Origin: Oricola sp.
Lineage (GTDB): Bacteria; Pseudomonadota; Alphaproteobacteria; Rhizobiales; Rhizobiaceae
Reading direction: 5' to 3'
Length of the DNA: 64,000 nucleotides
Assembly: GCF_022763245.1 (NCBI RefSeq)
Contig: NZ_JALEGV010000043.1
Span: 186,001 to 250,000, forward strand
Positions 53,043 to 64,000 of the stretch are shown piece by piece. Both the position numbers and the translations under genes were made by a program. The notes beneath the pieces are model-generated. The model had not been told where the DNA came from. It worked only from the letters and a program-made list of their open reading frames with translations, and ran no database searches. Every line of letters starts with the position of its first letter. Positions within the stretch are counted from its first letter, which is position 1.

Positions 53043-53969
53043 ATGTTCGCCGACTATTCCTGGTCCGAACTCGGTTCCATCTTCGCCATGCAGGGCTTCG
53101 CAGGGCTGATCCTGTTCTCGGTCTTCGTCCTGATGGCGCTCGGCCTTGCGATCATCTTCGGCCAGATGGGCGTCATCAACATGGCCCATGGCGAGTTCAT
53201 GATCTTGGGCGCCTATGTCACCTATCTGTGCTCCAACTTCTTCTCCACCTACCTGCCGGCGCTGTTCGGCATCTACTTCTTCGTCGCGATGATCCTGGCC
53301 TTCTTCGCCTCCGGCGCGCTCGGCGCGCTGGTCGAGTGGGGGCTGATCCGCCACCTCTACAAGCGGCCGCTCGACACGCTGCTGGCGACATGGGGCCTCA
53401 GCCTCATCCTGCAGCAGGCCTACCGCTCCATCTTCGGCGCCCGCGAGGTCGGCGTCTCGCTGCCCAGCTGGCTGCTCGGCTCCTGGCCGCTGACCGACCT
53501 GATCGAGATCCCGATCAACGGCCTCTTCGTGATGAGCCTGACCTTCCTGATCGCGGTCGGCGTCTACTTCCTGATGTTCCGCTCGCGGCTCGGCATGCAG
53601 ACCCGCGCCGTCGTGCAGAACCGCGTCATGGCCGGCGCCGTCGGCATCAACACCGAGCGCGTCGACCGCATGACCTTCGCGATCGGCTGCGGCATCGCCG
53701 GCGTCGCCGGCTCGGCCTTCACGATGATCGGCTCGACCGGCCCGACCGCCGGCCAGCTCTACATCGTCGACACATTCCTGATCGTCGTCTTCGGCGGCGC
53801 AGCAAGCCTGCTTGGAACCATCGCCTCCGCCTTCACCATCTCTCAGGCGCAATCGACGATGGAGTTCTTCCTGTCCGGCTCGATGGCGAAGGTCCTGACG
53901 CTCCTGACCGTCGTGGGCATTCTCATGCTGCGCCCCGAAGGCCTGTTCTCGCTGAAAATCCGTCGCTGA
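53043..53969 (+). CDS. urtB: Amide/urea ABC transporter permease UrtB
   Basis: A 308-residue LivH-type permease with about eight membrane segments. It has ALGLAIIFGQMGVINMAHGEFMILGAY, the NMAHGE signature of the urea group, and GLSLILQQAYRSIFGAREVGVSLP. The C-terminus MLRPEGLFSLKIRR is the usual end. It forms the channel with UrtC. A 136-base gap with a hairpin separates it from urtA; urtC follows after 12 bases. Confidence 0.92.
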   Translation: MFADYSWSELGSIFAMQGFAGLILFSVFVLMALGLAIIFGQMGVINMAHGEFMILGAYVTYLCSNFFSTYLPALFGIYFFVAMILAFFASGALGALVEWGLIRHLYKRPLDTLLATWGLSLILQQAYRSIFGAREVGVSLPSWLLGSWPLTDLIEIPINGLFVMSLTFLIAVGVYFLMFRSRLGMQTRAVVQNRVMAGAVGINTERVDRMTFAIGCGIAGVAGSAFTMIGSTGPTAGQLYIVDTFLIVVFGGAASLLGTIASAFTISQAQSTMEFFLSGSMAKVLTLLTVVGILMLRPEGLFSLKIRR

Positions 53970-53981
53970 GGGAGCCCGACC

Positions 53982-55136
53982 ATGACGTCCGGAAACAGCT
54001 TTCTGACCCGCCAGGAACTCCTGGGCCTGGCAGTGGTGTCACTACTGATCCTCGTGGTTCTGCCGGCCTCGGTCGACATCTTCCGCCTCAACCTGATCGG
54101 CAAGTACCTGACCTACGCCTTCGTCGCCATCGGCCTCGTCCTGTGCTGGGGCATGGGCGGCATCCTGTCGCTCGGCCAGGGCGTGTTCTTCGGCCTCGGC
54201 GGCTACTGCATGGCGATGTTCCTGAAGCTCGAGGCCTCTACGCCGGAAGCCACCAAGATCCAGTCGACGCCGGGCATCCCCGACTTCATGGACTGGAACC
54301 AGCTCACCGAACTGCCCTGGTTCTGGGAGCCGTTCCACTCCTTCCCCTTCACGCTGGTCGCCATCGTGGCGCTGCCGTCGCTGTTCGCCTTCGTCATCGG
54401 CGCGGCCATGTTCAAGCGGCGGGTCGGCGGCGTCTACTTCGCCATCATCACCCAGGCGATCGCCGCCATCCTGACGATCCTGATCATCGGCCAGCAGGGC
54501 TACACCGGCGGCGTCAACGGCATCACAGACCTGCGCACGCTGCTCGGCTGGGACATCCGCACCGACAGCGCCAAATACGTCCTCTATTTCGTCAATGCCG
54601 GCCTGCTGATCGCCGTCATCGTCGCCGCCCAGGCGGTGCGCAAGTCCAAGCTCGGCCGCCTGCTCGTCGCCCTGCGCGACAAGGAGGACCGGGTGCGCTT
54701 CTCCGGCTACGACGTCGCCAACTTCAAGATCTTCGCCTTCTGCCTGGCGGCGGCCTTCTCGGCGATCGGCGGCGCCATGTTCACCCTGCAGGTCGGCTTC
54801 ATGTCGCCGTCCTTCGTCGGCATCGTCCCGTCCATCGAGATGGTCATCTACACCGCGGTCGGCGGCCGCCTGTCGATCTTCGGCGCGGTCTACGGAACCC
54901 TGCTCGTCAACTGGGCCAAGACCACCTTCTCCGAGACCTTCCCCGAACTCTGGCTGTTCGGCCTCGGCGCGCTGTTCATCGCCGTCGTGCTGGTCTTCCC
55001 GAACGGTCTCGCCGGTCTCTACCGCAGCTACCTGCAGCCGCATGTCGACCGCCTGCTCGGCGTGAAGAAGCCGGCTGACGACGACGAACCCGCCAGCGAC
55101 GCCGTGCCCGAAGCGGCCGCCCGCGCTGCCGAATAG
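53982..55136 (+). CDS. urtC: Amide/urea ABC transporter permease UrtC
   Basis: A 384-residue LivM-type permease with about ten membrane segments. GLVLCWGMGGILSLGQGVFFGLGGYCMAMFLKLE is the UrtC signature, and GGVNGITDLRTLLGWDI and ALRDKEDRVRFSGYDVANFKIFAF follow. A 30-residue charged C-terminal tail (KKPADDDEPASDAVPEA) extends past the last helix. It pairs with UrtB; the gene is 11 bases before urtD. Confidence 0.92.
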   Translation: MTSGNSFLTRQELLGLAVVSLLILVVLPASVDIFRLNLIGKYLTYAFVAIGLVLCWGMGGILSLGQGVFFGLGGYCMAMFLKLEASTPEATKIQSTPGIPDFMDWNQLTELPWFWEPFHSFPFTLVAIVALPSLFAFVIGAAMFKRRVGGVYFAIITQAIAAILTILIIGQQGYTGGVNGITDLRTLLGWDIRTDSAKYVLYFVNAGLLIAVIVAAQAVRKSKLGRLLVALRDKEDRVRFSGYDVANFKIFAFCLAAAFSAIGGAMFTLQVGFMSPSFVGIVPSIEMVIYTAVGGRLSIFGAVYGTLLVNWAKTTFSETFPELWLFGLGALFIAVVLVFPNGLAGLYRSYLQPHVDRLLGVKKPADDDEPASDAVPEAAARAAE

Positions 55137-55147
55137 GAGGCCGACCG

Positions 55148-55906
<759 letters not shown>

Positions 55907-55916
55907 GAGCCAGACC

Positions 55917-56606
55917 ATGCTCAATGTCGCGAACTACCACGTCGCCTACGGCCAGAGCGAAGTCCTGCACGGCCTGGATTTCACCGTCGCCCCCGGCGAG
56001 ATCATCGCCATCATGGGCCGCAACGGCATGGGCAAGACGACGCTCATGAAGTCGCTGATGGGCATCGTGCCCACCAGCGGCGGCGCGGCAAGAGTCGGCG
56101 ACACCGACATCACGGCGATGAAGAGCTACGACCGCGTCGCCAGGGGCATCGCCTATGTGCCGCAGGGCCGCATGATCTTCTCCACCATGACGGTGCGCGA
56201 GAACATCGAGACCGGCCTGACCGTCTCCGGCAAGACGAAGGTGCCGGCCGACATCTACGAACTCTTTCCCGTGCTCCTGGAAATGAAGGGCCGGCGCGGC
56301 GGCAACCTCTCCGGCGGCCAGCAGCAGCAATTGGCCATCGCAAGGGCGCTCGCCACCGACCCCAAGGTGCTGCTCCTCGACGAGCCGACCGAGGGCATCC
56401 AGCCCTCCATCATCCGCGAGATGGCGCGCACGCTCAAACGCATCCGCGACGAGCGCGGCCTGTCCATCGTCGTCTCCGAACAGGTGCTGTCGTTTGCGCT
56501 CGACGTCGCCGACCGCGTCCTCGTCCTGGAAAACGGCCGCCTCGTCCATGACGAACCGCGCGCCGGCGTCGACGAGGCCAAGGTCGCCGCCTTCCTGTCC
56601 GTCTGA
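55917..56606 (+). CDS. urtE: Amide/urea ABC transporter ATP-binding protein UrtE
   Basis: A 229-residue LivF-type ATPase. Walker A GRNGMGKTT, Q-loop YVPQGRMIFSTMTV, signature LSGGQQQQ, Walker B VLLLDEPTEGIQPS and switch VVSEQVL, in which Glu replaces the usual His as in LivF/UrtE proteins. The GIQPSII segment is typical of UrtE. It is the last transporter gene; fmdA starts 55 bases further on. Confidence 0.93.
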   Translation: MLNVANYHVAYGQSEVLHGLDFTVAPGEIIAIMGRNGMGKTTLMKSLMGIVPTSGGAARVGDTDITAMKSYDRVARGIAYVPQGRMIFSTMTVRENIETGLTVSGKTKVPADIYELFPVLLEMKGRRGGNLSGGQQQQLAIARALATDPKVLLLDEPTEGIQPSIIREMARTLKRIRDERGLSIVVSEQVLSFALDVADRVLVLENGRLVHDEPRAGVDEAKVAAFLSV

Positions 56607-56661
56607 TCCTTCAACCCCTTCACACGCGTCCGAAGAACGGCGCCAACCAGAGGAGAAAGCC

Positions 56662-57891
56662 ATGGCTGAAACACTGATCTCCGTTGATCTCTCGGAATCG
56701 CCGCACACCAACGAGAAGGTGCACAATCGCTGGCATCCCGACATTCCGATCGCCGTCTGGGTCGAGCCCGGCGACGATTTCAAGATCGAGACCTATGACT
56801 GGACCGGCGGCCAGATCAACAACGACGACGACGCCGCCGACGTGCGCGACGTGGAGCTCGAACAGGTCCACTATCTCTCCGGCCCGATCGGCGTGAAAGG
56901 TGCGGAACCGGGCGACCTGCTGGTGGTCGACATCCTCGACATCGGCGCCAAGGATGACAGTCTCTGGGGCTTCAACGGCTTCTTCTCCAAGCAGAATGGC
57001 GGCGGCTTCCTGACCGAGCATTTCCCCGAGGCCCAGAAATCCATCTGGGACATCGACGGCATGTTCACCAAGTCGCGTCATGTGCCGGGCGTGCGCTATG
57101 CCGGTCTCATCCATCCGGGCCTGATCGGCTGCCTGCCGGATCGCGCGATGCTCGACATGTGGAACGAGCGCGAAAAGGCGCTCTTCGACACCGACCCGGA
57201 CCGCGTGCCGCAGCTCGCCGCCCTGCCGACCACCCAGTCGGCGCATATGGGCCAGTTGAAGGGCGAGGCCCGCGACAAGGCCGCCGCCGAGGGCGCCCGC
57301 ACCGTGCCCCCGCGCGAACATGGCGGCAACTGCGACATCAAGGACCTGTCGCGCGGCTCCAAGATCTACTTCCCGGTCTATGTCGACGGCGCCGGCCTCT
57401 CCATGGGCGACCTGCACTTCAGCCAGGGCGACGGCGAGATCACCTTCTGCGGCGCCATCGAGATGGCGGGCTGGCTGCACATCAAGGTGTCGCTGATCAA
57501 GGAAGGCGTCTCGAAATACGGGATCAGGAACCCGATCTTCAAGCCGTCGCCGATCGTGCCGAAATATGACGACTACCTGATCTTCGAGGGCATCTCGGTC
57601 GACGAGGCCGGCACGCAGCATTACCTCGACGTGCACATCGCCTACCGCATGGCCTGCCTCAACGCGATCGAGTATCTGAAGAAGTTCGGCTACACGGGCG
57701 CCCAGGCCTACGCCATCCTCGGCACCGCGCCGGTGCAGGGCCACATATCGGGCGTCGTCGACATCCCGAATGCCTGCGCGACGCTGTGGCTGCCGACCGA
57801 CGTGTTCGAGTTCGACATGATGCCGGGCGCCGACGGACCGACGAAATATCTCGACGGCTCCATCGACGTGCCGCTCGCGCCGGATCTCTGA
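56662..57891 (+). CDS. fmdA: Formamidase
   Basis: A 409-residue enzyme of the FmdA/AmdA acetamidase-formamidase family that hydrolyses formamide to formate and ammonia. Landmarks include SPHTNEKVHNRWHPDIP, GDDFKIETYDWTGGQI, LSGPIGVKGAEPGDLLVVDILDIG, PGVRYAGLIHPGLIGCLP, HGGNCDIKDLSRGSKIYFPVYVDGAGLSMGDLHFSQGDGEI and GTAPVQGHISGVVDIPNACATLWLP. The length and order match FmdA of Methylophilus. It is encoded in one run with the urt genes, so uptake and hydrolysis are linked. AGGAGA precedes ATG 56662. Confidence 0.94.
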   Translation: MAETLISVDLSESPHTNEKVHNRWHPDIPIAVWVEPGDDFKIETYDWTGGQINNDDDAADVRDVELEQVHYLSGPIGVKGAEPGDLLVVDILDIGAKDDSLWGFNGFFSKQNGGGFLTEHFPEAQKSIWDIDGMFTKSRHVPGVRYAGLIHPGLIGCLPDRAMLDMWNEREKALFDTDPDRVPQLAALPTTQSAHMGQLKGEARDKAAAEGARTVPPREHGGNCDIKDLSRGSKIYFPVYVDGAGLSMGDLHFSQGDGEITFCGAIEMAGWLHIKVSLIKEGVSKYGIRNPIFKPSPIVPKYDDYLIFEGISVDEAGTQHYLDVHIAYRMACLNAIEYLKKFGYTGAQAYAILGTAPVQGHISGVVDIPNACATLWLPTDVFEFDMMPGADGPTKYLDGSIDVPLAPDL

Positions 57892-57907
57892 GGAAGGGGC
57901 GACGATC

Positions 57908-58240
57908 ATGCCATTCTACGATTACCAATGCGAAGAATGCGGCCCCTTCACCGCGATGCGGCCGATGGCCATGTCGGGCGAGCCCTGCCACTGTCCCGAC
58001 TGCGGCAGCCAGTCGCCGCGCGCGATCCTGCGGGCGCCGAATTTCGCGCTGATGGATTCGTCGACCCGCATGGCCCACGCCACCAACGAGAAGTCGCGCC
58101 ACGAGCCGAAGGTTTCCAGCAAGACGGGCCACGGCCCGGGCTGCTCCTGCTGCTCCGGCAAGGGCAAGTCGAAAGCGGTCTACCGCGCCGACGGCTCCAA
58201 GACCTTCCCGTCCTCGCGCCCCTGGCAAATCAGCCACTGA
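57908..58240 (+). CDS. fmdB: FmdB-type zinc ribbon protein
   Basis: A 110-residue FmdB-family protein. The N-terminal zinc ribbon MPFYDYQCEECGPFTAMRPM ... CHCPDCGS has two C-x2-C pairs, and a second Cys cluster CSCCSGKGK lies near residue 80. In Methylophilus FmdB is thought to regulate formamidase expression. It follows fmdA by 16 bases with GGAAGGGGCG upstream, completing the amide operon. Confidence 0.9.
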   Translation: MPFYDYQCEECGPFTAMRPMAMSGEPCHCPDCGSQSPRAILRAPNFALMDSSTRMAHATNEKSRHEPKVSSKTGHGPGCSCCSGKGKSKAVYRADGSKTFPSSRPWQISH

Positions 58241-58382
58241 CCGCCTTCGCCCGAAAGGCGAGGGGAGGAAGCCAACCCGCCGGGAGCCCCGAAAAGGCCC
58301 CCGGCGGTGTGCGTTTGGCCCGGTGAAGGAGCGGGGGCGAAGTGAACTGATGTCGGCGATTAGCCGAGCCATATCCCCACCT

Positions 58383-58557
58383 CCGTCATCCTAGGGCTCG
58401 ACCCGAGACAAGCGGAGCGCCGTCGTCGCCCCTAGGATCCATTCCGTGAATGCCCCACTTCACTGGAGGTCCAGAACGCCCGCCTTCCCATGCAGGCACA
58501 GCTGCCGCCTTGTCGGCTTCACGGAATGGGTCCTCGGCTCAAGGCCGAGGATGACGG
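58383..58557. repeat. Palindromic intergenic repeat, copy A (expanded)
   Basis: Two arms of about 40 bases in inverted orientation (outer ends CCGTCATCCTAGG and CCGAGGATGACGG, inner ends CATTCCGTGAA and TTCACGGAATG). This copy has about 25 extra bases in the hairpin of the left arm. Its upstream flank GGCGATTAGCCGAGCCAT is shared with copy B. Confidence 0.85.
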
Positions 58558-58621
58558 CGGGGGAAGAGGCATCGCGGCTAACGTCATGCATTGGCGATTA
58601 GCCGAGCCATATCCCCCACTG

Positions 58622-58767
58622 CCGTCATCCTAGGGCTCGACCCTAGGATCCATTCCGTGAATGCGCCACGTCACTGGAGATGCAGAACAGTCGCCCTCCC
58701 GAATAGGCACAGCCGCCGCCTTGTCAGCTTCACGGAATGGATCCTCGGCTCAAGGCCGAGGATGACG
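58622..58767. repeat. Palindromic intergenic repeat, copy B
   Basis: The cleanest copy: left arm 58622-58661, right arm 58729-58767, about 67 bases between. Each arm also folds on itself (CCTAGGGCTCGACCCTAGG; CCTCGGCTCAAGGCCGAGG). Translated, it gives VILGLDPRIHS and WILGSRPRMT, peptides well known from repeats in Rhizobiales. Confidence 0.88.
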
Positions 58768-58860
58768 CGGTGTGTTTGTCGCCCGCACCCAATCACCCAC
58801 ACCACAAGAAAATCGCCCCCAACTTATCCACCATCCCGCCACCGCCCATACCCTTGCCCG

Positions 58861-59640
58861 ATGACTGACCCGCAAGGCCCCACCTTCGACTGGCAAGCCG
58901 CCATCGACCGCAACCGCGAGGCGCTGTTGCGCATCGTCGCGGTGCTGTTCGTGCGCGCCGGGCTGGACGAGGGCGGGGCCGATCTGGTGACGCGGCGCGC
59001 CTGGCGGGTGATCCTGCGCGTGCTGCGTCCGGCCGAATCCGCCGCCCGTCGGCTGATCGTCATCGCCGCGCGCAGCATCGGCGTCGGCCTCCTGAAACCG
59101 CGCCCCGCGAAGGAGCCAACCGCCCTCGAACAGCTCCAGGCGGCGGGACTTGTCATCACCCACACCGGCCTCAATCTCGGCCTTGCCCGCATGTGGCAGC
59201 CACCACCCGAAGTTCAGCAACCCGCACCGCCACGCCCCCCGACCTTCGCGCTCACCGACCCGCCGCGCCGCTTCGACCCGAAGGGCTGGGACGGAAGGCG
59301 CCCGTTCCCGCGCGACGGGTTCGATCTTGCCGACGACCACGAGGACGTCAGCGCCGACCACCTCTGCGCCCGCCTCAAGGCGCTGAAGCGCGCTCTGGAG
59401 GATATCGACGGACACGCAAGACGGCTCGCCCGACTGCAGGCCCGACGCGCCGCAACCCTTTTCGCGCCAGCAAGCGAAGCGCAGCTTAAGGGCGCGAACA
59501 AAGGGCGCGCGAGAGCCAGACCTCCCCTGCGCCACGGCTGGCCCCCGGGCCACCGCAAACTCTCCACCCACACGGTCGACAGCGTCCTGCGCGAATGCCA
59601 CGGCCTCGCGCTGCAGGCGTTGAGGCCGGACACGTCGTGA
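58861..59640 (+). CDS. Orphan protein of unknown function
   Basis: A 259-residue soluble, Arg/Pro-rich protein that I do not recognise. The N-terminal 100 residues are helical (WQAAIDRNREALLRIVAVLFVRAGLDEGGADLVTRRAWRVILRVLRPAESAARRLIV) and could hold one weak membrane-associated helix. A Pro-rich link (QPPPEVQQPAPPRPPTF) leads to a basic helical C-terminal part. ATG 58861 is used; the frame runs 270 bases further upstream only because it reads through repeat copy B. It stands alone between repeat copies, so it may be one of the dispensable genes of the species. Confidence 0.68.
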   Translation: MTDPQGPTFDWQAAIDRNREALLRIVAVLFVRAGLDEGGADLVTRRAWRVILRVLRPAESAARRLIVIAARSIGVGLLKPRPAKEPTALEQLQAAGLVITHTGLNLGLARMWQPPPEVQQPAPPRPPTFALTDPPRRFDPKGWDGRRPFPRDGFDLADDHEDVSADHLCARLKALKRALEDIDGHARRLARLQARRAATLFAPASEAQLKGANKGRARARPPLRHGWPPGHRKLSTHTVDSVLRECHGLALQALRPDTS

Positions 59641-59775
59641 AGGGCATCGACCGCTCCGAATCCTGCAATCCGCACTCGAAGACGAGCCGCGGTGTCGTTA
59701 CCGCGCGCCTGTCTCTGCGTACGGAAGCCGACTCTTCATGCTTTTGGCGATTGGCCGTGAACCCGAAACCTCTCC

Positions 59776-59922
59776 CCGTCATCCTAGGGCTTGACCCTAG
59801 GACCCATTCCGTGAACGTCCCACTTCACAGAACAGGCAGAACAGGTGCCATCACATTCGGACACCGCGGCCCACCCGTCAGCCTCACGGAATGGATCCTC
59901 GGGTCAAGCCCGAGGATGACGG
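59776..59922. repeat. Palindromic intergenic repeat, copy C
   Basis: Same element as copies A and B, about 1 kb further on, with covarying changes in the arm hairpins (CCTAGGGCTTGACCCTAGG; CCTCGGGTCAAGCCCGAGG). The pairing is kept although bases differ, which suggests the structure matters. Confidence 0.85.
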
Positions 59923-60078
59923 GTCAGAGGGGCCGGCCCGTTGCCGCGCGCGCCCCAATCCCCTCCAATTCCGCCCGCCAATACCGTTCCGCGAATGCAG
60001 TTTTCGCGAGCGTGAATACAATAGCCGGCGAAAGTTCTGCCGGGTCGAATTTGTGGCCTGTCTTTGCGGTGTCGCCGG

Positions 60079-60084
60079 TTGACA
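60079..60084 (+). promoter_or_regulatory. TTGACA hexamer, possible -35 of the selenoprotein gene
   Basis: A perfect -35 hexamer 76 bases before the start codon. No good -10 sits at 16-18 bases, so the promoter is uncertain. Confidence 0.3.
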
Positions 60085-60107
60085 GCCCGAATCCTTTCGG
60101 TCAGTCA

Positions 60108-60115
60108 TGTATACA
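60108..60115. promoter_or_regulatory. TGTATACA palindrome, GntR-like operator candidate
   Basis: TGTATACA resembles the core of operators used by GntR/FadR-type repressors. It lies 45 bases before the selenoprotein start, where a repressor would act. A single eight-base site is weak evidence. Confidence 0.3.
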
Positions 60116-60159
60116 CGAAGCGGCCGGATCGGGCCGCGTCAGGACTTCGGGAGGCTGCC

Positions 60160-61821
60160 ATGGCGGACAAGATCAAGGTGCTCGATCCGCGGGGATACCC
60201 GCCGAAAGTGGTCGGCAAACGTCTCGCCAACCGGCCGATGAGTCTCGACGGCAAGGTGCTCTACCTGATCGACGCGCTCTTCGACAATGCCGACGTCTTC
60301 ATGGAACAGCTGCGCGACTGGTTCGCCACCAACATGCCGTCGGTGGAAACCCGGATCATCAAGCCGCGCGAGAGCTGGAAGGACGATCCGGAGATGAGGG
60401 CGACGGTGGTGGCGCAAGGTGACGTCGCCATCATGGGCGTCGGCCTCTGAAGCACCTGCTGTCCCACGGTCGTGGGCTTCGCATTAGCACTGGAAGAAGC
60501 GGGGATCCCGACGATCCCGGTCTCCACCCATGCCTTCGCAAGGCTGGCCAAGGCCACCGCGAAGACGGGCGGCATGCCGACCCTGCGCAACTGCTACGTG
60601 CCGCAGCCGGTCGTCGGCCGCACGCCGTCGGAACTGCGCGACTATATCGAGGGCATGGACCCGATCGAGAAGCGCCCCTTCATGCAGGGCGTCATTGACG
60701 GGCTGACCCAGCCGCTGAGCGACGAGGACCTGAAGGGCGCGACCTTCGAGCGCGAAATGCCGCGCTTCCTGGAGCCGGACACGGAGGACAACCTCCACCA
60801 GCTCTTCCTGGAAAACCACTGGACCGACCAGCTTCCGGTCGTGCTGCCGACCGAGGCGCGCGTCGAAGCGATGCTCAAGGGCACCTCGCATGCGCCCGAC
60901 AAGCATGTCGGCCACATGCGTCCGACCGCCTTCCGCGAGGCCTGGGCCTTCGACGTGGAAAAGGTCGCGGTCAACGCGGTGATGGCCGGCGCGCGGCCGG
61001 AATATCTGCCGGTGATCCTGGCGCTGACGGCGAGCGGCGTGTCCGCGCGGTCCTCCAGCACCACCTCCTGGGCGGCGCTGTCGATCGTCAACGGCCCGAT
61101 CCGCGACGAGATCGGCATGAATAGCGGCATCGGCACGCTCGGACCCTACAACCACGCCAACGCCACGATCGGCCGGGCCTATTGCCTGGCCAGCCAGAAC
61201 GTGCAGGGCGGCTCGGTGCCGGGCGACACCTATATGGGTTCCGTCGGGTCCAACTGGAACTACACGGCCTGCTTCGCCGAAAACGAGGAGCGCAGCCCGT
61301 GGTCGCCCTTCCATGTCGACAACGGTTTCAAGGCGAGCGATTCCACCGTCAGCGTCTTCTTCGGCGGCTGGTACACCCAGTCCGGCTTCGGCCCGCGCGA
61401 AACGTGGAAGGAGAAGTTCATCCGCTGCCTGACAGCGACCGACCACTTCAGCCCGCCGTTGATCGTGATGGACCCGATCGTCGCGCGCGCCTTTGACGAC
61501 ATGGGCTATTCCAAGCAGTCGCTGATCGAGTGGTGCGCCGAAAACGCCAAGATGCCGGCGCGCAACTACTGGGACGACCAGTGGACGACGACGCTGGTCA
61601 AGCCGCATGCCGTGGCCGGCGTCGAGCCCTTCGCCAGCCGCCTGAGGGCCGCGCCCGACGAGATGATCTCGATCTTCCGGCCGGAAGACATCAACATCGT
61701 CGTCATCGGCGGCGAGACGCAGGGCGCCTTCAAGATGATCAGCGGCCGCTATCGCGGTCTCGGGCCCGGCACGATGACCGGCGGCAAATTGCCGACCGTT
61801 CGCGTCGATGACTGGCGATGA
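60160..61821 (+). CDS. Selenoprotein with in-frame UGA (Sec97), UGSC-like N-terminal domain
   Basis: One reading frame of 554 codons interrupted only by TGA at 60448-60450; I read that codon as selenocysteine 97, giving U-S-T-C-C (a U-x2-C redox motif). The N-terminal 180 residues (GKVLYLIDALFDNADVFMEQL, VAIMGVGL-U-STCCPTVVGFALALEEAGIPTIPVSTHAFARLA) resemble the UGSC-type (seleno)proteins I know, where GVGD-U-GSC fills the same place. The C-terminal 370 residues (VMAGARPEYLPVILAL; DEIGMNSGIGTLGPYNHA) are not recognised. GGGAGG precedes ATG 60160. A SECIS-like hairpin follows the UGA, and selD and a thioredoxin-reductase-like gene follow. No signal peptide, so it is cytoplasmic. Splitting it into two genes would leave the second half without a ribosome binding site. 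Confidence 0.88.
60457..60483 (+). promoter_or_regulatory. Bacterial SECIS-like hairpin
   Basis: CCCAC (60463-60467) pairs with GTGGG (60472-60476) around loop GGTC (60468-60471). Below an internal loop, TGC pairs with GCA. The loop begins 18 bases after the UGA, as in E. coli fdhF where a GGUC loop lies at nearly the same distance. Confidence 0.75.
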
Positions 61822-61822
61822 C

Positions 61823-61848
61823 ACCCTCGATCTTTCGCGATCGAGGGT
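61823..61848 (+). terminator. Hairpin after the selenoprotein gene
   Basis: ACCCTCGATC pairs with GATCGAGGGT over six bases, beginning immediately after the stop codon. No T run follows; a second hairpin with T5 lies 24 bases on. Confidence 0.6.
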
Positions 61849-61871
61849 CGGATCGCCGGTGTTTGTCGGCC

Positions 61872-61901
61872 GATCTTTCGTGAATCGCGAAGATCCTTTT
61901 T
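61872..61901 (+). terminator. Hairpin plus T run before selD
   Basis: GATCTT...AAGATC with further CG pairs inside, then CTTTTT. A candidate intrinsic terminator that would separate the selenoprotein message from selD at least partly. Confidence 0.5.
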
Positions 61902-61977
61902 CAAAGAAACCGAATTCTCTCGCCGCCGATCCTGTGCTTTCTGGCTGGACCAATTGCGGATCGGGGAGGAGACGCGA

Positions 61978-62004
61978 ATGACGGATATTTCATCATGGGC
62001 GTGA
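61978..62004 (+). CDS. Eight-codon leader ORF overlapping the selD start
   Basis: ATG 61978 has an excellent ribosome binding site (GGGGAGGAG) and reads MTDISSWA before a stop at 62002-62004. The selD ATG (61995) lies inside it in another frame and has no ribosome binding site at proper distance. Translation of selD is therefore probably coupled to this leader. The peptide itself need have no function. Confidence 0.5.
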
Positions 62005-63065
62005 CCGGAGCGCAAAAGGCCGAGCCGGCGCCCTTTCGCCTGACGAGCCTCGCCCATGGCGGCGGCTGCGGCTGCAAATTGTCGCCCGCGGTCCTGCGCG
62101 ACCTTCTCGCCGGCCAGCCAGCGATGCAGGCCTTTCCCGATCTTCTGGTCGGCACCGAGACCGGCGACGACGCGGCGGCCTATCGCATCAATGACGACAC
62201 CTGCGTGATCGCGACCACCGATTTCTTCATGCCGGTGGTCGACGACCCGACGGATTTCGGCCGCATCGCCGCGACCAACGCGATTTCCGACGTCTATGCC
62301 ATGGGCGGCCGGCCGATCATGGCGCTCGCGGTCCTCGGCATGCCGGTGGACAAGATCGCGCCCGAAATGGTGCGCGCCATCCTCGCCGGCGGCGCCTCCG
62401 TCTGCGCCGATGCCGGAATTCCGGTCGCCGGCGGCCATTCCATCGACGCGCCGGAGCCGATCTACGGCCTCGCCGTCATCGGCGTCTGCCCGACGGATCG
62501 CCTGCGCCGCAATTCCGGCGCGCAGCCCGGCGACGTGCTGATCCTCACCAAAGGCATTGGCGTCGGCATCTATTCCGCCGCCTTCAAGAAGGGCGATCTG
62601 GACGAGGCCGGCTATGGCGAGATGATCGCGACGACGACGCTGCTCAACAGCGTCGGCACGACGCTCGCCGAAAACGCGGCCGTCCACGCGATCACCGACG
62701 TGACCGGCTTCGGCATTCTCGGCCACGGGCTGGAAATGGCGCGCGGCTCGGCCCTGCATCTGAAGCTTCAGGCCGACGCGGTGCCGCTGCTGTCGCAAGC
62801 CGCGGCGCTGGCGCAGGGCGGTTTCATCACCGGCGCGTCGCACCGCAACTGGGCAAGCTATGGCGACGAGGTGACGCTGCCCGAAGGCTTCCCGGACTGG
62901 CGGCGGCTGCTGCTGGCCGATCCCCAGACCTCCGGCGGCCTTCTGGTCGCCGTCGCCCCGGACGCGGCCGAAGCCGTGCTCGCCGACATCCGGCAGGCCC
63001 GCTATCCGGCGGCTTCGATCGTCGGCGTCGCCGAGGCCGGCACGCCGGAAATCACAATCGTATAG
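61995..63065 (+). CDS. selD: Selenophosphate synthase SelD
   Basis: A 356-residue enzyme that makes selenophosphate, the selenium donor for Sec-tRNA and selenouridine, from selenide and ATP. The Gly-rich loop with the catalytic pair is [11 protein letters not shown]: Cys25 corresponds to Cys17 and Lys28 to Lys20 of the E. coli enzyme. The active-site Cys is not Sec here. [42 protein letters not shown] and the C-terminal [12 protein letters not shown] are also standard. It lies between the selenoprotein gene and a flavin reductase gene. selA, selB and selC are not in the window. Expression is probably coupled to the leader ORF at 61978. Confidence 0.96.
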
Positions 63066-63084
63066 ACAGGATGAGACACGCATC

Positions 63085-64000
63085 ATGAGCCAGGAATTCG
63101 ACGTGGCGATCATCGGTGGCGGACTGGCCGGCCTGAGCGCCGCCCTGACCGCCGGCCGGCTGGGACACAGCGTGGTGCTGCTCACCGACGGGGTGCCCGG
63201 CGGCGAGCTGCTCAAGATCGAGAAGATCGACGGCGTGCCGGGCTATGCCGAGGGCGTGCCCGGCTACGATCTCTGCCCGATCACCCAGGAACAGGCCGAG
63301 GAACTGGGCGTCGAATTCGTCGACGAGCCGGCGACAGGCATTTCGGCGGAAGGCGAGGGCTGGAAGATCGCCAGCGGCGCCGGCGACATCGTCGCCCGCG
63401 GCCTGATCATGGCGACCGGAACGGCGATGGCCAGGCTGGGCTTGCCGGGCGAGGAGCGTCTGCACGGCAAGGGCGTCAGCGAATGCGCCAGCTGTGACGC
63501 GCCGCTTCTGCGCGGCAAGGTCGCCGTGGTCGCCGGCGGCGGCGATTCCGCCATGCAGGAGGCGCTGGTGCTTGCCGATCATCTGGAAAAGGTGATCATG
63601 GTCATGCGCGGCGACGGTCTGGCCGGTCAGGCGCGCTACCGCGAGGCTGTGGAGGAGAACCCGAAGATCGAACTGCGCTGCAACACGGTGCCGACCGAGA
63701 TCGTCGGCGAGGACGCCGTCACGGCGGTCAAGGTCAAGGACGAGGCGTCCGGCGTCGAGGATGAAATCGCCGCCGACGCGATCTTCACTTTCATCGGCCT
63801 CGTGCCCAACACCGGCCTCGTCGCCGACCTCGTCGCGCTGGACGACACGGGCCGCATCCGCGTCGATGCCGCGATGCGCAGCGACGCCAAGGGCCTCTGC
63901 GCCGTCGGCAATGTGCGCGAGGGCTCGCCGCATCGCGCCGTCGGCGCCATGGGCGACGCGGCAGCGGCCGCCGTCGCGCTCGACCGGTATCTGGCGACCG
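63085..64000 (+). CDS. Thioredoxin-reductase-like flavoprotein, 3' end cut by window
   Basis: About 305 residues are visible; no stop is reached. FAD binding is VAIIGGGLAGLSAAL; the redox pair is Cys134/Cys137 in GVSECASCDAP, at the place of the C-A-x-C of thioredoxin reductase; NADPH binding is VVAGGGDSAMQEAL; FTFIGLVPNTGLV and AVGNVREGSPHRAVGAMGDAAAAAVAL close the fold. The last motif differs from the usual G-D-G-x2-A-A, and the overall length suggests only a few residues are missing. Its place 19 bases after selD and near the selenoprotein suggests it reduces that protein, as TrxB does for glycine reductase. Frame and start (ATG 63085) are read directly. Confidence 0.9.
   Translation, partial: MSQEFDVAIIGGGLAGLSAALTAGRLGHSVVLLTDGVPGGELLKIEKIDGVPGYAEGVPGYDLCPITQEQAEELGVEFVDEPATGISAEGEGWKIASGAGDIVARGLIMATGTAMARLGLPGEERLHGKGVSECASCDAPLLRGKVAVVAGGGDSAMQEALVLADHLEKVIMVMRGDGLAGQARYREAVEENPKIELRCNTVPTEIVGEDAVTAVKVKDEASGVEDEIAADAIFTFIGLVPNTGLVADLVALDDTGRIRVDAAMRSDAKGLCAVGNVREGSPHRAVGAMGDAAAAAVALDRYLAT

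Follow-up and report, generated by a model that had tools for sequence, protein, structure and literature searches.

A UGSC-fusion selenoprotein gene beside a complete selenocysteine cassette in Oricola sp., and its probable role as a reductase

Positions 60160-61821 of the window, the 64,000-nucleotide stretch of DNA that was analysed (C20:186001-250000 of a 5.63 Mb genome in 45 contigs), almost certainly encode one selenoprotein, in which the UGA at 60448-60450 is read as selenocysteine (Sec) 97. The product joins a UGSC domain to a second, C-terminal domain; it is probably a reductase that is recycled by a flavoprotein resembling thioredoxin reductase (TrxR-like) and serves the catabolism of an imported small molecule, perhaps by a reductive cleavage.

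Reading frame, UGSC domain and codon 97

The following features of the gene were located:
60149-60154, + strand: GGGAGG, likely ribosome-binding site of the UGSC-fusion gene (from the sequence)
60160-61821, + strand: UGSC-fusion selenoprotein gene, 553 residues with Sec97; final stop TGA at 61819-61821
60448-60450, + strand: in-frame TGA, read as selenocysteine 97 (from homologue codons and selA co-occurrence)
60178-60645, + strand: UGSC domain (PF24696), residues 7-162, spanning the in-frame TGA; 94.3 bits, cut-off 25

The initial annotation had described two open reading frames in the same frame, split by one TGA. This was seen: the frame opens with ATG at 60160, 3' of GGGAGG, is interrupted solely by the TGA at 60448-60450, and runs on to the next stop at 61819-61821. 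Translation of the TGA as U gives a 553-residue product with U97 in the sequence GVGL-U-S-T-C, in agreement with the U-x2-C redox motif proposed earlier. The first listed start in the part after the TGA is GTG 60472, and no ribosome-binding site is visible upstream of it, as had been stated for this second part. The GC content at codon position 3 is similarly high in the two parts (0.88 and 0.91). Because the window DNA is GC-rich, the open length alone is weak evidence (chance of 456 stop-free codons 9e-4, from the window triplets); the part of the frame evidence that goes beyond chance is homology, in the form of one UGSC profile match across the TGA.

PF24696 scored 94.3 bits with the joined protein, 33.2 bits with the first half (profile positions 1-91) and 43.7 bits with the second (96-158). 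As each half matches a separate part of the profile, the two are pieces of one UGSC domain, and the UGSC-type domain suspected at the UGA was thereby located at residues 7-162. The fusion passes the cut-off of this family (25), and 54 of 54 relatives match it at E<=0.1. The equivalog cut-off of NF041046 (125) was not reached (71.5 bits); seven other UGSC-type proteins scanned with this model scored 33.5 to 121.5.

A match to the fusion was found in 7 of 199 genomes of the family. Residue 97 is encoded by TGA in G000, in G001 (80% identity) and in G110 (82%), and is Cys in the remaining family copies that extend to the position; the source genome itself carries a Cys paralogue on contig C33 (about 50% identity). 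A scan of GTDB contigs matched at least 594 stretches, at least 562 of them relatives, and the best 80 were kept (79 loci). Codon 97 in the 100 aligned places from these best 80 was TGA in 77, TGC in 13, TGT in 2 and another codon in 8, a TGA share that holds for the closest relatives and not for the family at large. Within this set TGA at the one codon is conserved across phyla. A search for homologues with Cys or Sec aligned to residue 97, recommended in the initial annotation, thus found one of the two, as TGA or a Cys codon, in 92 of the 100 places, and the homologues continue past the UGA instead of all ending there. Motifs at the position include U-STC, U-DGC, U-PGC, U-HGC, U-GSC and C-STC. 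Ramlibacter aurantiacus (L048) and Pseudonocardia acaciae (L069) are among the carriers of the TGA form, Neorhizobium and Rhizobium among those of the Cys form. In a quick tree of 60 rows (unrooted, without bootstrap), 15 of the 16 Cys rows fell in one starred clade amid Sec rows, with two changes in total. No match to patterns of the fusion protein was found in viral contigs.

At five loci (L083, L086, L105, L107, L135) the residue is neither Sec nor Cys but one of Leu, Trp, Ser, Gly and Met; some such relatives are adjacent, as diverged pairs, and their function must differ. Five UGSC-fusion copies lie within about 15 kb at L085, and clustered or tandem copies also occur at L080, L081, L087, L089, L095 and L098. 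Most of these clustered genes have TGA at the same codon, with varying motifs (U-EAC, U-PGC, U-HGC, U-DGC), and they may belong to a single complex as its subunits or represent an expanded set.

One further copy is carried by Acidovorax sp. T1:
8640-10208 of L134 (plasmid p2-T1): U-GSC fusion on a conjugative IncP plasmid
The gene listed there stops at codon 97, a TGA (the gene table is incomplete), a case which shows that annotation can truncate such genes at the UGA. This U-GSC fusion lies about 6 kb from IS1071 and near IS91-like elements, and travels on a catabolic-looking plasmid.

Selenocysteine machinery and the hairpin downstream of the UGA

The genes that follow the fusion, and the hairpin within it, are:
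61995-63065, + strand: selD, selenophosphate synthetase, Cys form (GGGCGCK); PRK00943 503.3 bits, cut-off 299
63085-64000, + strand, on to C20:250020 past the window: TrxR-like flavoprotein gene with a CASC motif, directly after selD
C20:250078-251403, + strand: selA; 588.9 bits, cut-off 267.9
C20:251448-253337, + strand: selB; 401.6 bits, cut-off 242.25
C20:253427-253518, + strand: selC, tRNA-Sec; 78.3 bits, cut-off 47
60462-60477, + strand: SECIS-like hairpin with loop GGUC (60468-60471), five pairs and one U-C mismatch at the base

The order is therefore fusion, selD, TrxR-like gene, selA, selB, selC. That selD is the next gene had been recognised from the start; selA, selB and selC, for which a check of the genome had been advised, were all found directly downstream of the fusion cluster, outside the window and on the same strand as the fusion gene. 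Further tRNA-Sec matches in the source genome comprised one of 47.4 bits, barely above the cut-off of 47, and six below it. Formate dehydrogenase was considered as a second selenoprotein and rejected, with an internal stop in 0 of the 15 listed matches.

Within the family, selA was above the cut-off in 19 of 199 genomes. It is present in G000 and G001, as well as in G070, though only Cys forms were seen there; it was not found in the TGA-form genome G110 (68% complete; the fusion copy runs off the contig). Tracing among the GTDB relatives covered 49 genomes, from 50 of the 79 loci: selA was above the cut-off in 35 of 35 TGA-form genomes compared with 1 of 13 Cys-only genomes (Fisher p 1.9e-10, kinship ignored), and was present in the genome of L083, with Leu at position 97.

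According to PMC1088965 (in excerpt), bacterial SECIS elements carry a guanosine in a small apical loop, and the hairpin 3' of the UGA fits this description as a family feature. In 33 U-STC-type relatives the stem formed by positions 15-20 and 25-30 after the UGA, with the loop GGUC, was paired in 86.4% of cells versus 77.7% after shuffling, and its covariation score was 0.269 versus 0.121; on both measures 0 of 500 shuffles were as high, and stems slid along the alignment scored lower. Two of the five measures in this test were not above shuffles, namely the counts of covarying pairs and of pair types (275 and 237 of 500). RNAalifold on the region recovered the inner four pairs only. In a test with reshuffled synonymous codons, better folding of the 19-nt stretch than expected by chance (p<=0.05) was seen for 16 of the 36 Sec copies in the STC group and for 0 of its 16 Cys copies; outside this group it was seen for 21 of 42 Sec copies. 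Mean values in the STC group were -10.1 kcal/mol (Sec) versus -1.6 kcal/mol (Cys), with a Mann-Whitney p of 1.2e-7, kinship ignored. The hairpin is kept in Sec genes and absent from Cys genes as groups. The window copy by itself was no better than chance (z -0.06; codon-shuffle p 0.27), and Rfam on 56000-64000 at E<=1 gave a single chance sRNA match far under its cut-off.

Standard annotation would read the locus as two genes, a 96-residue UGSC fragment and a gene starting at GTG 60472, or else as a broken pseudogene. The listed gene on p2-T1 indeed ends exactly at the TGA (its table being incomplete), and haloarchaea and some relatives encode the two domains in neighbouring genes whose boundary falls between the domains, whereas here the TGA falls in the middle of the UGSC domain. 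As the TGA is moreover conserved across phyla (77 of 100 places in the best 80 of at least 562 relatives), tracks selA and is followed by a kept hairpin, a reading as two genes or a pseudogene is highly improbable.

C-terminal domain and gene neighbours

60757-61818, + strand: C-terminal domain, residues 200-553, presumed substrate domain, with no clear Pfam or PDB counterpart

The full protein was modelled by AlphaFold2 from 54 sequences (pLDDT 92.5, pTM 0.91), and the C-terminal domain also alone (pLDDT 90.3, pTM 0.91). In the model a strand (89-95) leads to Sec97 and on to a helix (100-113). Invariant polar residues in the 54 rows include D223, N311, R339, E374 and H385. In the model of the UGSC domain, strands and helices follow one another in a Rossmann-like way; a Trx-like fold was suggested for the UGSC family in PMC2398784 (in excerpt), and no thioredoxin occurred among 50 Foldseek rows, all weak. 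With the full model, four PDB chains were matched at E<=0.001, all of one hexosaminidase at a TM-score of about 0.17, and were rejected; the remaining matches were Rossmann-like fragments. A possible resemblance to Asp/Glu racemases was also considered. A sequence search of the PDB returned a single uninformative match (E 0.73).

The C-terminal region had been called unlike anything that could be named, and neither Pfam nor Foldseek against the PDB supplied a clear counterpart. Pfam beyond UGSC gave sporadic weak matches in one or two of the 54 relatives, and the region alone matched only DUF3234 (E 0.15). Foldseek of this domain found nothing in the PDB at E<=0.001 and nothing in a viral structure library. 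Fumarases and cyclic amide hydrolases headed the Foldseek list at E>=1.1e-3 and TM-scores of about 0.2, and because of these values they were rejected and no fold is claimed. Their presence at the top of that weak list, together with the relatives in which Leu, Trp, Ser, Gly or Met occupies the position, would suit a non-redox catalyst, such as a lyase, isomerase or hydrolase, in which Sec or Cys acts as nucleophile and no net reduction takes place. Fold matches at such TM-scores are unreliable, though, and the adjoining TrxR-like gene points to redox turnover, so that this kind of catalysis is quite unlikely.

Of 86 loci, 29 have a TrxR-like gene no more than 3 kb from the fusion, next to Sec and Cys forms alike; the two genes share a strand at 26 of these and are at most 300 nt apart at 24. 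In the other 57 loci, some with short flanks, none was found within 3 kb. CxxC is present in 30 of 30 TrxR-like copies that extend to the motif (31 loci with a match). The TIGR01292 cut-off of 343.45 was not reached by the partner (243.7 bits) or by a second copy in the source genome (280.6 bits), while a third gene of that genome scored 392.2 bits; on these scores the partner seems to be separate from ordinary thioredoxin reductase. The fusion is probably a reductase coupled to this TrxR-like protein.

Malonyl-CoA decarboxylase occurs within 3 kb in four loci, all with Cys forms: L027 (source genome), L057, L076 and L084. Each also has a malonyl-CoA-synthase-type ligase, a GntR gene and a TrxR-like gene, and three of the four an SBP_bac_6 importer. 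The Neorhizobium plasmid CP090555 carries phaZ, malonyl-CoA decarboxylase, malonyl-CoA synthase, the fusion (annotated as two hypothetical proteins owing to a frame difference), GntR and importer genes. On two haloarchaeal plasmids the two domains are adjacent genes, UGSC and a hypothetical protein, surrounded by genes for CoA transferases and transporters; one of these plasmids also has HMG-CoA lyase and an amidohydrolase. Judging by the Cys operon, the product may be malonate or a malonyl-CoA precursor. These malonate genes accompany Cys forms, not the Sec form of the window, and the substrate of the Sec form may differ from that of the Cys form.

Upstream, the permease and ATPase genes at 53043-58240 of the window are taken by us to belong to an importer of the urea/branched-chain amino-acid type. 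Two further genes in this region presumably encode a formamidase-like protein (near 56600-57891) and a small zinc-ribbon protein of the FmdB type (at 57908). A 146-nt intergenic repeat is present upstream of the selenoprotein gene in three copies that are 80-81% alike (58375-58777 and 59767-59923), with inverted ends GTCATCCT.GGGCT.GACCC; the listed reading frame 58591-59640 starts inside it. In the U-DGC/U-PGC branch a short-chain dehydrogenase gene replaces the TrxR-like gene within 3 kb in eight loci, seven on the same strand (L085, L088, L089, L091, L093, L095, L099, L112). A MetE-like methyltransferase gene lies within 3 kb at L039, L068 and L073 (for L073, NF005085 425.6 bits, cut-off 313), which hints that some branches may act on methylated substrates.

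PMC2398784 (in excerpt) regards most UxxC selenoproteins as probable thiol oxidoreductases, and a TrxR-like reductase would also be suitable if the Sec took part in repair or in defence against thiol or peroxide stress and not in catabolism, the C-terminal domain then being a binding module or partner. The catabolic-looking neighbours (importers, CoA ligases, malonyl-CoA decarboxylase, CoA transferases, HMG-CoA lyase, amidohydrolases) argue against such a role, which is regarded as unlikely.

Proposed reaction and comparison with known systems

Two GrdB proteins from genomes of relatives, with their own UGA read through, align with the UGSC domain. The hhalign comparison of UGSC with GrdB gave a probability of 90.4 and P 1.4e-6, with Sec on Sec and Cys on Cys, versus P 0.013 or worse for 13 other proteins and 0.094 for reversed GrdB as controls. 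With the motif masked, P was 0.0012 and the probability 19.2, in unchanged register. One of the two GrdBs weakly matches NF041046 (E 0.01) and PF24696 (E 0.063), the second neither. Common descent of the Sec-bearing parts of UGSC and GrdB has, from these two sequences, moderate support. PF07355 gave no match with the fusion protein and is not among the families listed for its relatives. The C-terminal domain was rejected as a relative of GrdE, the pyruvoyl partner (P 0.45), and of GrdB (P 0.053).

Under the preferred reading as a TrxR-coupled reductase, the UGA at 60448-60450 would be decoded as Sec97 by means of the nearby hairpin and of the SelB and tRNA-Sec that the cluster encodes. Within the chain, the N-terminal UGSC domain would supply the U-x-x-C pair, and the substrate would probably be bound by the C-terminal domain. 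For glycine and D-proline reductase, PMC10298544 (in excerpt) describes an attack by a selenolate, a selenium-carbon bond that is then cleaved, and a selenenylsulfide. By analogy, the Sec97 selenolate might attack the substrate and cleave a bond reductively, and Cys100 might resolve the intermediate to a selenenylsulfide; electrons would then pass from NAD(P)H through the TrxR-like flavoprotein to Sec97/Cys100. Such GrdB-like bond cleavage is conceivable, if somewhat doubtful. The presumed role would be the catabolism of an imported small molecule, whose product in the Cys branch would likely enter a route through malonate to malonyl-CoA.

More tentatively still, these proteins might form a class of single-chain Sec/Cys reductases, the equivalent of glycine/proline reductase in organisms other than the classical amino-acid fermenters. 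Such a class would combine a GrdB-like UGSC domain with a substrate domain of new fold, be driven by its own TrxR-like protein and remove a substituent reductively from imported acids, the Cys branch feeding malonate to malonyl-CoA. The function is testable in ordinary soil bacteria, since the locus has a reductase gene beside the fusion and a complete Sec cassette in the same run, and Cys relatives share an operon with the known end enzymes malonyl-CoA decarboxylase and synthase.

The protein had been put forward as possibly a new selenoenzyme type. The part of this that stands is the C-terminal region, which is unnamed; the UGSC family itself is known, and the GOS survey described a UGSC/Unknown_1 fusion in 2008 (PMC2398784, in excerpt), so that the protein does not represent a novel sort of selenoprotein and the fusion architecture is probably not new in itself. 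A function for UGSC was not found in the literature by titles and abstract openings, a coverage outside which most subscription journals lie.

Compared with the UGSC family (PF24696/NF041046), the fusion shares the domain over residues 7-162, Sec at the UGSC position and U-x-x-C; it differs in the motif (U-STC instead of U-GSC), in its NF041046 score (71.5 against 125) and in a chain longer by about 350-390 residues. UGSC/Unknown_1 is likewise a UGSC protein joined to an unnamed conserved domain, and if Unknown_1 is the C-terminal domain seen here, the fusion would date from 2008. With GrdB/PrdB (PF07355, TIGR01918) the fusion has in common a U-x-x-C between a preceding strand and a following helix, whereas the long N-terminal part of GrdB and its partner GrdE are without counterpart in the fusion. 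GrdB-like FarB, part of a proposed fluoroacetate reductase and suggested in PMC10838667 (in excerpt) to attack the C-F bond of fluoroacetate, resembles the present case as a GrdB-type Sec protein with a proposed attack on a carbon-heteroatom bond, an imported acid and a co-encoded transporter; unlike the fusion, the FarB system is a true GrdB/GrdE pair from an anaerobe, and its chemistry is likewise a proposal.
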